From Paenibacillus sp. PvR098 (GTDB lineage Bacteria > Bacillota > Bacilli > Paenibacillales > NBRC-103111): 64,000 nt of DNA. The notes under the pieces are model-generated. The model searched no databases. It was not told the origin of the DNA and saw only the letters and a list, made by a program, of their open reading frames with translations. Position 1 is the stretch's first letter. Each line of letters begins with the position of its first letter. The stretch is taken from contig NZ_JAFIBU010000001.1 of NCBI RefSeq assembly GCF_017833255.1, positions 1,922,001 through 1,986,000 on the forward strand, given 5' to 3'. The position numbers were made by a program, and so were the translations under genes. Shown here in pieces: positions 28,586 to 60,642 of this stretch.

Positions 28586-29338
28586 ATGACAGAACCTTTA
28601 TTTACTGTATCCCGTGAAGACTGGTCGCTGCACCGCAAAGGGTATCAAGATCAGACCCGGCATCAAGAAAAAGTACGTGAAGCGATCAAGCAAAACCTGC
28701 CTGACCTGGTGAGTGATGAAAGCATCGTGATGTCGGACGGCAAGCAGATTGTGAAGGTGCCCATACGAAGTCTGGATGAATACCGTTTTCGTTATAACTA
28801 CAACAAGAGCAAGCATGTCGGGCAAGGAGACGGAGACAGTCAGGTTGGCGACGTGTTAGGGGTAGATCCCCAGCCAGCTTCCGGCTCGGGTAAAGGCGAG
28901 GGAGCCGGCGATAAACCCGGGGAAGATTATTACGATGCGGAAGTTCAAATGGAAGAGCTCCAGTCCATGCTGTTTGAGGAGCTGGAGCTTCCTAACCTGC
29001 AGCAGAAAGAGAAATATAATGTCACGACGAAAGAGATCATCTTTAACGACATCCGCAAAAAAGGAATTATGTCCAACATTGATAAGAAGCGAACGATCCT
29101 GGAAAATCTCCGACGCAACGCGCGCGATGGCGACCCGGGGATCCACCATATCAGTCCAGACGACCTTCGATTTAAAACGTGGGAGGAAATTGTGACGCCG
29201 CACTCCAATGCACTCATCCTCGCTATGATGGATACGTCCGGTTCCATGGGAGTGGCAAAGATAACTAAAGGCAAAAAGATCTGTTCGAGCGAAAAGCTCA
29301 GAGCAGACCTTTTTTTCTATTTAAAGCACTCCCTTTAA
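28586..29338 (+). CDS. yhbH: YhbH (DUF444) sporulation protein, N-terminal part of a split gene
   Basis: The ATG at 28586 has AGGAGG 8 nt upstream. Residues 1-222 are a clear YhbH N-terminus: SREDWSLHRKGYQDQ, KVPIRSLDEYRFRY, an acidic Gly-rich linker, then NALILAMMDTSGSMG, the start of a von Willebrand A-like fold with its metal-site motif DTSGS. At 29250 the homology ends and 29 element-encoded residues follow before a stop. The missing part lies in frame at 60147-60642. Excision at TCCATGGG would join 665 + 496 = 1161 nt, a 386-residue protein close to the 392 of B. subtilis YhbH. Without excision the truncated product lacks most of the vWA-like domain. Confidence 0.95.
   Translation: MTEPLFTVSREDWSLHRKGYQDQTRHQEKVREAIKQNLPDLVSDESIVMSDGKQIVKVPIRSLDEYRFRYNYNKSKHVGQGDGDSQVGDVLGVDPQPASGSGKGEGAGDKPGEDYYDAEVQMEELQSMLFEELELPNLQQKEKYNVTTKEIIFNDIRKKGIMSNIDKKRTILENLRRNARDGDPGIHHISPDDLRFKTWEEIVTPHSNALILAMMDTSGSMGVAKITKGKKICSSEKLRADLFFYLKHSL
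29243..29250 (+). repeat. attL core of the yhbH intervening element
   Basis: TCCATGGG, repeated exactly at 60139-60146. It encodes part of S-M-G in YhbH. To its left is yhbH sequence; to its right is element sequence (AGTGGCAAAG). Recombination between the two copies restores the yhbH frame. Confidence 0.9.
29274..29317 (+). terminator. Terminator just inside the left end of the yhbH element
   Basis: A stem with AGATCTG and AGCAGACCT outer arms and a GAGC/GCTC inner stem around GAAAA is followed by TTTTTTT. It lies 25 bp inside attL and would stop transcription from the yhbH promoter entering the element. It may also serve the convergent sensor kinase gene. Confidence 0.7.
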
Positions 29339-31066
29339 TGGAATAGAAATGTTAAATTCGGTCATTCCATTCTCGCTATTCAGCTGAATCGAACCCTGAT
29401 AACGTTCCACAAGCTGGTGAACGATATAGAGTCCTAAGCCTGAATTTTTCCCGTTATGCTTGGAGGTAAAGCCTGACTCAAACATCTTCCGTTGAATATC
29501 CGAGGGGATTGGATTTCCCCTATTCACCACTCTAAGCTGCAGCTGCTGGTTATTCACGTCGCCTTCAACCTTGACATACCGGTATTGTTGATCAAGCTCC
29601 ATGGTGGCATCGAACGCATTATCGATTAAATTACTTAACAGCTTGACCATATCCGTTGCCTTCACTGGACTAAATTTTACCTTCTCCATCTGATTGAACG
29701 CATGCTCAAAGCAAATCCGCTGTCTCTCAGCTTGTGTGAGCTTGGCTTGAAACAATGCGATGAGGGGCGGATTGTTGATGTTCACCAGATCATTCACAAC
29801 CCGTATTTCTCCCACTAACGTCTTCGTATAAGAATGCAATTCCTCATAATGCTTTAAAGTCAGGAACGCATTAATCGTTTGAATATGATTAATAAAATCG
29901 TGCCGCTGTTCCCGAATGGATTGAAACAATGTCTCCATGTTACCGGCATAGGCGTCCTGTACATCTTGTACGGCACGTTCTTTTTTGCGGTTGTATAATA
30001 TAAACATGAAGGTAATAATGGCTAGGGACAAGCCTGTGCAGATGAGCATAAAGAACAACGTATTTTGCAATTGTTTCTGCAGAAGCTGCTCGACCTCGGT
30101 ATAGTCGTATGAAATTTCAATCAAAGGAGCTGCGCCCGTTGCATTGTATTTCATAAATTCCTTATGGATGGGCGTAAAGCTTTTGAACACCGTCTTATCT
30201 TCAGAGGATGTGGTATAAAAGACGGTCTGATTCGTATCCAGCGCCATTTGGGCATACTTCTTTTCGTCCGAATCCCGGTACTGGTATTGTCCAAACAGAA
30301 CTAGCCTTTCCGAATACCAGTGACTCGGAGTAGGGTTCTCAGCAGGATACTGGCGGTCCAGAAGTTTATCTGAATTTAGTACGGAAATTTCCAGCCTCAT
30401 GTGCTCATGTTCTTTCGTCAGCCTGCGAATGGCATCTTCAACGCCGGTTACGCTTTGATAGATCCGAAAATCCGTATTTTGCACAAAAGGATTGATGATG
30501 TAATTGGTTGTACCATCAAAGTAATAACCCCATTTATTAATGCTCTCCGGATTGGACGTTGCCGTATCGAAAGGAGCGCTCCAGTAATGGGGTAAAGCCT
30601 GCCCCATACCGACGTTTACATTCTGGAGATCGAATAATTGATGGAATGCGATGTAGATCGTGTCCCAGCCTTTTGAGCTTACATTCAAATCTTTCGGATC
30701 CGAGGACTTCGCACCTACGATGTCGTCCGGTTTCTTTTGGAATAGGGTAATTTGGTCGACGCCCAGCTGCTTGCTTAACTCAACAAGATCGCTATTATCC
30801 ACTTTGTCAATGTCGGGGTCCAGCTTGAATTGGGAGGCTATAGCGGCGCTCCTGAGATTTTGCCCGATTAAATCCTCTACGAATTTTTCACCTGCCGCGG
30901 TTTGCTCGATACTCATCCGGACGCTGTTGTACAGCAGCAGCATCTTTTCCTTTTGATTCTGTATGATAATTTCTTTGGTGTGCTGGTAATATACGATATT
31001 CAATGTCATCAATACAAGCAGAAAAACGAGGGATGCTCTTAGAGGTATTTTTTTAAACAAAATCAT
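29321..31066 (-). CDS. Orphan sensor histidine kinase (Spo0B-type dimerisation, CitA/DpiB-like)
   Basis: A 581-residue membrane kinase. TM1 is at about residues 10-27, a large extracytoplasmic sensor region spans about 28-335, TM2 is at about 338-360. A helical segment leads to the SPOB_a-type motif IREQRHDFINHIQTINAFL with phosphohistidine, then a HATPase domain (LLSNLIDNAFDAT, SGLGLYIVHQL). No response regulator is adjacent, which is common for kinases feeding a phosphorelay. AGAGGTGG precedes the ATG. It lies inside the yhbH element next to attL, and a perfect Spo0A-box-like 9-mer is found 65 bp upstream of its start. Confidence 0.9.
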   Translation of the reverse strand: MILFKKIPLRASLVFLLVLMTLNIVYYQHTKEIIIQNQKEKMLLLYNSVRMSIEQTAAGEKFVEDLIGQNLRSAAIASQFKLDPDIDKVDNSDLVELSKQLGVDQITLFQKKPDDIVGAKSSDPKDLNVSSKGWDTIYIAFHQLFDLQNVNVGMGQALPHYWSAPFDTATSNPESINKWGYYFDGTTNYIINPFVQNTDFRIYQSVTGVEDAIRRLTKEHEHMRLEISVLNSDKLLDRQYPAENPTPSHWYSERLVLFGQYQYRDSDEKKYAQMALDTNQTVFYTTSSEDKTVFKSFTPIHKEFMKYNATGAAPLIEISYDYTEVEQLLQKQLQNTLFFMLICTGLSLAIITFMFILYNRKKERAVQDVQDAYAGNMETLFQSIREQRHDFINHIQTINAFLTLKHYEELHSYTKTLVGEIRVVNDLVNINNPPLIALFQAKLTQAERQRICFEHAFNQMEKVKFSPVKATDMVKLLSNLIDNAFDATMELDQQYRYVKVEGDVNNQQLQLRVVNRGNPIPSDIQRKMFESGFTSKHNGKNSGLGLYIVHQLVERYQGSIQLNSENGMTEFNISIPLKGVL

Positions 31067-31131
31067 GTGTCCACCTCTGTTCGATATAAATTAAAGATGT
31101 TCTTAGATGATTATAGCTGTTTTTGTATGAA

Positions 31132-31140
31132 TTTGTCGAA
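31132..31140 (+). promoter_or_regulatory. Candidate Spo0A box upstream of the element's sensor kinase
   Basis: TTTGTCGAA, a perfect match to TTTGTCRAA, 66 bp upstream of the leftward kinase start. It could couple kinase expression to Spo0A. A single match is weak evidence. Confidence 0.3.
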
Positions 31141-59854: not shown

Positions 59855-60138
59855 AAGTACAAAACCTCCCTAAAATATAGTCCTTACATCCTCAACTCAA
59901 CCCACAACGTTCATCACCATTGTCGTTTTAACCTAATTTCGGTTTACCATTAGCCCCCCCAAAATACCCATGTAATAATAACGTAATGATTCCTTACATG
60001 TATGTTACAATAAAAAATCCATATCATCATTGTCACTTAAAATAACATGTAGTGGTATTATTTTGTCAGAATAAACAATTGACATCCTAGAACTTTTAGT
60101 ATCTATTTTCTCTTCTGTCTCATTGTGGCAACCCCAAA

Positions 60139-60146
60139 TCCATGGG
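60139..60146 (+). repeat. attR core of the yhbH intervening element
   Basis: TCCATGGG, identical to 29243-29250. To its left is element sequence (CAACCCCAAA); to its right yhbH resumes in frame. GTGGCAA occurs beside the core on the element side at both ends (29252-29258, 60125-60131). Confidence 0.9.
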
Positions 60147-60642
60147 CTCCTTTGAAAAATATATCGCCCGCAGCTTCTTTTTCTGGATGACACGCTTTCT
60201 GCGTACGAAATACGAGCACGTGGAAATCGTGTTTATCGCTCACCACACGGAAGCGAAAGTCGTGACGGAGGAAGAGTTTTTCACTAAGGGCGAGAGCGGC
60301 GGAACGATATGTTCCTCAGCGTATCAGCTTGCGGTGGATTTGATCGACCGTTCGTACCCTTCATCGCGCTTCAACATTTATCCGTTCCATTTTTCCGACG
60401 GCGACAATCTGACCTCCGACAATGAGCGGTGCGTGAAGCTGATCAATGAGCTGGTCAAACGCTGCAATCTGTTCGGCTACGGCGAAGTAAACCAATACAA
60501 CCGCAGCAGCACCCTGATGTCGGCTTACCGTAACCTGCACGACCCGAAATTTGTTCATTATGTGATTCGCGAGAAGGGCGAGGTTTATAAAGCGCTCAAA
60601 ACCTTTTTCCCGAAAGGGATGGAAGGGAAGGTGGCAAGATGA
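60147..60642 (+). CDS. yhbH: YhbH (DUF444) sporulation protein, C-terminal part of the split gene
   Basis: This segment continues the vWA-like domain of YhbH: SFEKYIARSFFFWMTRFLR, IVFIAHHTEAKVV, GESGGTICSSAY, YPFHFSDGDNLTSDNERC and GYGEVNQYNR. It has no ribosome site or start of its own, although ATG at 60142 is in frame. Joined to 28586-29250 through the core it gives a full 386-residue protein. The stop overlaps the spoVR start (ATGA), so both are one operon. YhbH works in the mother cell with PrkA and SpoVR in B. subtilis; its biochemical role is unclear. Confidence 0.95.

Follow-up and report, generated by a model that had tools for sequence, protein, structure and literature searches.

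The adjoining genes yhbH and spoVR of Paenibacillus sp. PvR098, a relative of Paenibacillus naphthalenovorans, are each divided by an intervening element of about 31 kb, and both elements are probably removed by their own serine recombinases in the mother cell late in sporulation, by which yhbH and spoVR would be restored in frame. The divided pair was analysed in a window of 64 kb (genome positions 1922001-1986000 of an assembly that forms a single contig of 4.70 Mb), and positions given below refer to this window unless they are called genome positions. Excision in the mother cell is known to repair a handful of split sporulation genes, SprA of SP-beta being a serine recombinase, and yhbH is under the control of SigE. 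Read directly from the sequences are the two splits with their exact repeats and in-frame joins, a recombinase within each element, the return of the yhbH split at one and the same site in other species, and purifying selection on both halves of yhbH. The features of the region are collected in Table 1.

The repeat TCCATGGG is found twice on the plus strand of the window, at 29243 and 60139 with a spacing of 30,896 bp. When one copy and everything between the copies is removed, yhbH becomes a frame of 1161 nt, a multiple of three, with 386 codons and one terminal stop; this split with its in-frame repair had been claimed in an initial annotation of the stretch and was reproduced by repeat search and joining. 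Unjoined, the frame of the 5' half continues to a stop at 29338 and ends as a protein of 250 aa. The Pfam family DUF444 (PF04285) is matched at positions 6-173 and 223-260 to the left of the gap and at positions 256-417 to its right, and no further DUF444/yhbH match was found in the 4.70-Mb genome beyond the pieces of this one divided gene. The large serine recombinase that had been placed about 2 kb inside the left end was identified there by its domains. Two of the 25 genus genomes compared, the present one and P. naphthalenovorans (G009), have yhbH split at this site; 22 have it uninterrupted, and the remaining one (G016, 84% complete) carries a frameshifted yhbH. The uninterrupted relatives, which would represent the empty attachment site attB, read continuously through the predicted joint with the sequence DTSGSMG-SFEKY.

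Table 1. Features of the divided yhbH-spoVR pair and its intervening elements (window positions)
Feature	Position	Strand	Remark
yhbH 5' half	28586..29242	+	codons 1-219
Left core repeat TCCATGGG (attL)	29243..29250	.	exact repeat
yhbH-intervening element, 30,896 bp	29243..60138	.	from repeat and join
Histidine kinase (SpoOB-type alpha-helical domain and HATPase)	29321..31066	-	78% identical counterpart in P. naphthalenovorans element
Large serine recombinase of yhbH element, 517 aa	31240..32793	-	Resolvase, Recombinase and zinc-ribbon domains
Candidate recombination directionality factor, 68 aa from inner ATG	32757..32963	-	overlaps recombinase start
SigE-like promoter ACATAAG-15-CATACATT with overlapping SpoIIID-like TAAGACAAGC	32998..33027	-	SpoIIID-like match not significant across the loci
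Short-chain dehydrogenase	33135..33896	-	88.5% identical counterpart in P. naphthalenovorans element
AddA/AddB-like helicase-nuclease pair	34182..40500	-	accessory cargo
Metabolic cargo	43754..59854	-	isochorismatase, nitrile hydratase, dihydroorotate-dehydrogenase-like proteins, amidohydrolase, PucR regulator, M20 peptidase, two ABC-type uptake sets
Right core repeat TCCATGGG (attR)	60139..60146	.	exact repeat
yhbH 3' half	60139..60642	+	stop codon overlaps spoVR start codon
spoVR 5' half up to repeat	60639..61426	+	remainder from genome position 2014257
Left 21-bp core GAACGAAGGCTGGGCTTCGTA of spoVR element	61427..61447	.	second copy at genome position 2014257
spoVR-intervening element, 30,830 bp in total	61427..64000 in window, on to genome position 2014256	.	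from repeat and join
Second, distinct large serine recombinase, 492 aa	61558..63036	-	just inside spoVR element

The initial annotation was right about yhbH and overlooked the second split, in the adjoining spoVR. Here the family match breaks off at about profile position 270 and is taken up again 30.8 kb further on, near genome position 2014258 (region G000:C1:1983427-2014277), and removal of the 30,830 bp between the two copies of GAACGAAGGCTGGGCTTCGTA yields a spoVR frame of 1428 nt and 475 codons. Between the spoVR-element recombinase and the one in the P. naphthalenovorans yhbH element, identity is only about 25%. Both genes are also split in P. xerothermodurans, yhbH by an element of about 3.6 kb and spoVR by one of 20,903 bp at the same site as here, and the spoVR-element recombinase of that species is 55% identical to the second recombinase of the present genome. 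The recombinase of the P. xerothermodurans spoVR element stands at the opposite end of the element compared with the present genome (L083, L124, L125). A survey of the spoVR family in 104 genomes revealed apparent interruptions near codon 266 (G039, G073) and near codon 57 (G112); not counted as split were G058 and G110 (overlapping pieces that resemble frameshifts), G061 and G075 (contig edges or other contigs) and G016 (stops). In P. selenitireducens (L165) the spoVR family match ends at residue 60, and the interruptions at codons 57-60 in this species and on G112:C11 apparently mark a second attachment point within spoVR.

The yhbH element belongs to a family that uses the same site across species. 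A scan of GTDB genome contigs with the yhbH-element recombinase gave 12 loci, and a yhbH half lay inside the fetched flank at 10 of them. One locus (L076) is that of P. naphthalenovorans, and in the genomes of the other 11 yhbH is divided at the same site in every case, the halves lying on separate contigs in G025, G032 and G035, the last a metagenome-assembled genome (MAG). Together with the present genome and P. naphthalenovorans, 13 split genomes from Paenibacillus, Cohnella and one MAG were examined in detail. Where both halves share a contig, the elements range from the small one of P. xerothermodurans through those of P. terrigena (7.9 kb), P. naphthalenovorans (20,757 bp), P. faecalis (23 kb), P. 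selenitireducens (24.5 kb), P. glacialis (27 kb) and the present genome (30,896 bp) to the largest, in Cohnella panacarvi (39 kb), P. ihumii (53 kb) and C. endophytica (58 kb). In a survey of 392 genomes at the level of the order, yhbH was matched in 375; at least eight genomes carry a split gene without a second intact copy and at least two a split gene with an intact copy inside the element. These counts are lower bounds with 29 genomes followed up, and small yhbH fragments in G180, G301, G353 and G399 stand outside them.

Comparing the left and right joint sequences pair by pair locates the probable crossover. Twelve split genomes were compared by script, and the MAG, which lies outside the script pattern and the symmetry counts, was read by eye; the joins are in frame in all 13 (12/12 by script, the MAG by eye). 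The two joints share only TC in C. endophytica, TCC in three genomes and 7 to 10 bases in the other eight scripted ones, which makes TC the only core common to all 12; TC is also the centre of a palindrome in the deduced attachment site attP. In the attP consensus of the 12 sites, 15 of 15 resolved arm positions are complementary around TC, whereas 5000 runs with shuffled arms reached 3.2 such positions on average and never more than 10, and a scan of centre offsets gave a symmetry sum of 174 at TC and at most 97 elsewhere. Because the attP palindrome is centred on TC and the shared core contains it, the crossover dinucleotide is predicted to be TC at 29243-29244 and 60139-60140. The domains of the recombinase and an inverted-repeat attP around a central dinucleotide are those of a large serine integrase.

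Both halves of yhbH appear to be maintained. Against P. naphthalenovorans, the nonsynonymous and synonymous divergences (dN/dS) are 0.010/0.465 for the 5' half and 0.012/0.497 for the 3' half, that is, ratios near 0.02 at a synonymous divergence near 0.5, compared with 0.099/0.989 for the recombinase and 0.031/0.915 for the joined spoVR; these values place both yhbH halves under strong purifying selection. The 3' half has an ATG within the core with no apparent ribosome-binding site before it, and it is separated from the 5' half by 20.8 or 30.9 kb in the two genomes; its conservation under these circumstances argues that it is regularly rejoined. Synonymous divergence is alike for the recombinase, spoVR and the flanking host gene (0.8 to 1.0) and lower for yhbH, and the likeness of the former is compatible with descent of the element from a shared ancestor followed by exchange of cargo.

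Four of the 11 genomes reached through the recombinase loci carry a second, intact yhbH, which follows immediately on the broken 5' half at the inner edge of the element. The carriers are Paenibacillus sp. LHD-117, C. endophytica, C. panacarvi and C. nanjingensis (L088-L091, L121, L122), and in C. endophytica the broken 5' half reads on into the intact copy, so that the unjoined frame comprises 612 aa. As the 5' part of the intact copy shares 71-77% identity with the genome's own host half, the copy is not a recent duplicate. Relics occur as well: G048 and G080 carry a relic 5' half that ends at the yhbH site upstream of a complete gene, and in G390 an intact yhbH is followed by 3' fragments with three stops. 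In spoVR, G073:C49:434570-482440 shows a 5' half, an intact spoVR, an extra spoVR fragment and then the 3' half, which is a self-complementing arrangement and the same layout as that of yhbH with an intact copy. The retention of a complete second yhbH in four genomes bears on the idea that the two halves function as separate polypeptides and need no rejoining. The ATG inside the core with which the 3' half opens would allow for this; the lack of an apparent ribosome-binding site before it, the cut within the DTSGSMG motif and the retained second copies speak against it, and we give this explanation next to no credence.

Directly before the recombinase of the yhbH element lies a small open reading frame (ORF), which opens at 32987 as a frame of 76 aa. 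Its family comprises proteins of 52-68 aa whose alignment contains an invariant G, W and G, and a member was found before the recombinase at 11 of 13 loci by script; that of L080 was read by eye with no ATG, GTG or TTG start seen, and that of L078 lies farther upstream. In the protein database, 18 such proteins including that of the present genome are all hypothetical or unnamed, and the named organisms are Paenibacillus or Cohnella. The small ORF is a candidate for a recombination directionality factor. About 60 nt before it lies a conserved block, [GA]CAT[AG]NGACAAG-N-CATACATT, which is exact at some loci and degenerate at others. Scored with a SigE consensus versus random windows of the same loci, the best SigE-like site of 9/11 loci falls between -59 and -64 and has a 15-nt spacer (Fisher combined p 1.2e-5), these loci being related and not independent. 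The block is kept as suggestive. A SigK promoter before the small ORF was considered and rejected, a SigK-like pattern being present in 0/11 loci.

The SigE-like promoter also bears on the question whether excision could be a stress response of growing cells, as for a phage or an island, with the rebuilt gene a side effect and no specificity for the mother cell. Three IMG/VR contigs that are classed as viral (54, 55 and 26 kb) encode recombinases with 57-63% identity beside a yhbH half, and among ten proteins scanned from two of these contigs several match phage families of replication, repair, modification or regulation. Taken with the elements of metabolic cargo, these contigs indicate that the same recombinase module serves islands and, likely, phages. 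The recurrence of the SigE-like site at most loci and the lack of phage structural genes in the present element (see below) are at odds with a stress response, and we regard it as quite unlikely.

Several observations weigh against excision programmed in the mother cell. The host halves are undecayed also in the genomes with an intact copy, so conservation alone is no proof of use. No yhbH match was found in 17 of the 392 genomes of the order, 14 of them in genus g37, and yhbH may thus be dispensable. In G084 (L118, G084:C23) yhbH is frameshifted and has lost bases around the attachment site, and a 5' fragment that ends near the same site lies 8.3 kb upstream of the gene start, possibly the result of a failed or imprecise removal; in G016 both yhbH and spoVR carry frame errors. 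The C. panacarvi element holds several pieces of yhbH and recombinase genes, as if elements had been stacked. Excision, circle and expression are predicted from sequence alone. For the control module, the small ORF has no Pfam, PHROG or PDB match of weight, its AlphaFold model is poor (pLDDT 70, pTM 0.44) and its role as a directionality factor is argued from position and conservation alone; the single-locus p values for SigE are modest (0.055 here, 0.17 to 0.53 in L077, L081 and L086), and SpoIIID boxes, sought by consensus over the set of loci, are not significant (p 0.19).

Part of this would suit a different explanation, in which both elements are ordinary integrated islands, yhbH and spoVR are by now dead genes, and excision is rare and unprogrammed. 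The metabolic cargo that is swapped between species, the damaged yhbH of G084, the near absence of yhbH from genus g37, the clean host halves of Cohnella beside an intact copy and the predicted nature of excision can all be accommodated by it. Dead genes are hard to reconcile, however, with the low dN/dS of both halves, with in-frame joins in every one of the 13 genomes and with 3' halves that are free of stops in 11/11 split genomes found via the recombinase loci, compared with the three stops in the G390 fragments beside an upstream intact copy. We therefore judge the island explanation improbable, while assigning it more weight than a stress response, and favour removal of both elements in the mother cell.

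For this removal we propose the following course. A SigE-type promoter would switch on the small ORF and the recombinase in the mother cell, the small ORF might act as directionality factor, and the recombinase would exchange strands at the TC dinucleotide. The excised circle would be lost with the mother cell, the forespore retaining the element. As the stop codon of yhbH overlaps the start codon of spoVR, removal of the yhbH element would also bring spoVR back under the yhbH promoter, and the two excisions would act in series on one transcription unit. A wider picture, to which we give about even chances, is that YhbH, and SpoVR from the same promoter, are gated by two independent serial excisions through two distinct recombinases, and that the gene pair is a landing hub across Paenibacillaceae and relatives. 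The hub would offer three or more apparent points of attachment (codon 220 of yhbH, and the neighbourhoods of codons 270 and 60 of spoVR); at it, a single recombinase module would be shared by phages and cargo islands that trade their contents, some of the elements bringing along, directly behind the broken 5' half, a complete substitute for the gene that they interrupt.

The cargo of the yhbH element differs from that of a phage. In a Pfam scan, 25 element proteins were regulatory, metabolic, transport or helicase-nuclease proteins or remained unmatched, and, the recombinase apart, no phage structural gene was found among these 25 or among seven proteins compared with PHROGs. The recombinase shares 84% identity with its counterpart in the yhbH element of P. 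naphthalenovorans, where three scanned proteins are parts of an Mrp-type antiporter. For the AddB-like protein, a search of the 25 genus genomes gave a match in nine, counting the present one with its single copy, and the full-length matches elsewhere are 40-42% identical. The view that the yhbH element carries the only essential AddAB was dropped on account of this distribution; since the pair is accessory, the claim that excision would necessarily be terminal because of it was abandoned. A role of the AddA-like protein as defence cargo is not claimed either, the PADLOC matches being mostly to generic UvrD helicase.

Several sporulation-gene intervening elements are available for comparison. 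The yhbH and spoVR elements share with this class that mother-cell sporulation genes (yhbH with its DUF444 domain, and spoVR) are split, that a short core repeat stands at both ends and allows exact in-frame rejoining, and that a site-specific recombinase is encoded within the element. The phage gene content of the prophage-like skin is missing; the term skin-like, as first applied to the yhbH element, holds for the proposed mechanism but not for the content. In skin, which divides sigK in Bacillus subtilis and Clostridioides difficile, excision by an internal serine recombinase likewise rebuilds a mother-cell gene. The B. subtilis skin recombinase gene spoIVCA is described as controlled by SigE and SpoIIID in a mother-cell paper that also names yhbH (PMC517825), and this resembles the yhbH element with its SigE-like promoter in layout. 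The host gene, the non-phage cargo and a directionality-factor candidate without a library match of weight set the yhbH element apart.

Elements in spoVR are already known (PMC4191935, PMC6957869). One of them is vrin of Geobacillus thermoglucosidasius C56-YS93 (PMC4191935), which shares its host gene with the second element here; in the present genome, however, the spoVR element adjoins a yhbH element in the same gene pair. The gin element in gerE of Bacillus cereus ATCC10987 is also a non-prophage intervening element of a mother-cell gene (PMC5595907), whereas the yhbH family has another host gene and cargo that ranges from about 3.6 to 58 kb. SP-beta in spsM of B. subtilis is excised during sporulation by the recombinase SprA with the directionality factor SprB (PMC4191935); it is an active phage, in contrast to the metabolic cargo here, and some IMG/VR relatives of the yhbH family look phage-borne. 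The yin element in yabG of Clostridium botulinum V73 combines a recombinase with a predicted directionality factor and is called a prophage (PMC10747680), and it differs in host gene and organism group. No report of an interrupted yhbH was found in the literature searched, which was mostly without subscription papers so that absence from print is not shown; this agrees with the early suggestion that yhbH may be a new host gene for such switches. A prophage survey of P. larvae lists a YhbH protein among prophage genes (PMC9341999), which may be where an element of this kind borders on its host gene. In yhbH we thus have an intervening element of a sporulation gene for which no earlier report was found, and the serial double split and the replacement copies mark it as a variant.

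With yhbH split at one site in 13 genomes, and the adjoining spoVR split also here and in P. xerothermodurans, natural controls are available within one recombinase family, namely elements without a second yhbH, elements with an intact copy, and relics. This set allows to test why such elements persist, and whether programmed excision or a spare gene is the remedy for a broken one. Furthermore, it yields a candidate directionality factor and a collection of attP and attB sites for bench use.

The genome contains other serine recombinases, near smpB, near a SCO1/sigma-like pair and in a transposase/Rep region, and no split sporulation gene was found in the 14-15 kb around each of them, with ten proteins scanned in total. 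The first of these (L013, G000:C1:3476000-3490000) is a large serine recombinase just downstream of an RNase R-like gene and smpB, and this locus is likely a tmRNA-site island.

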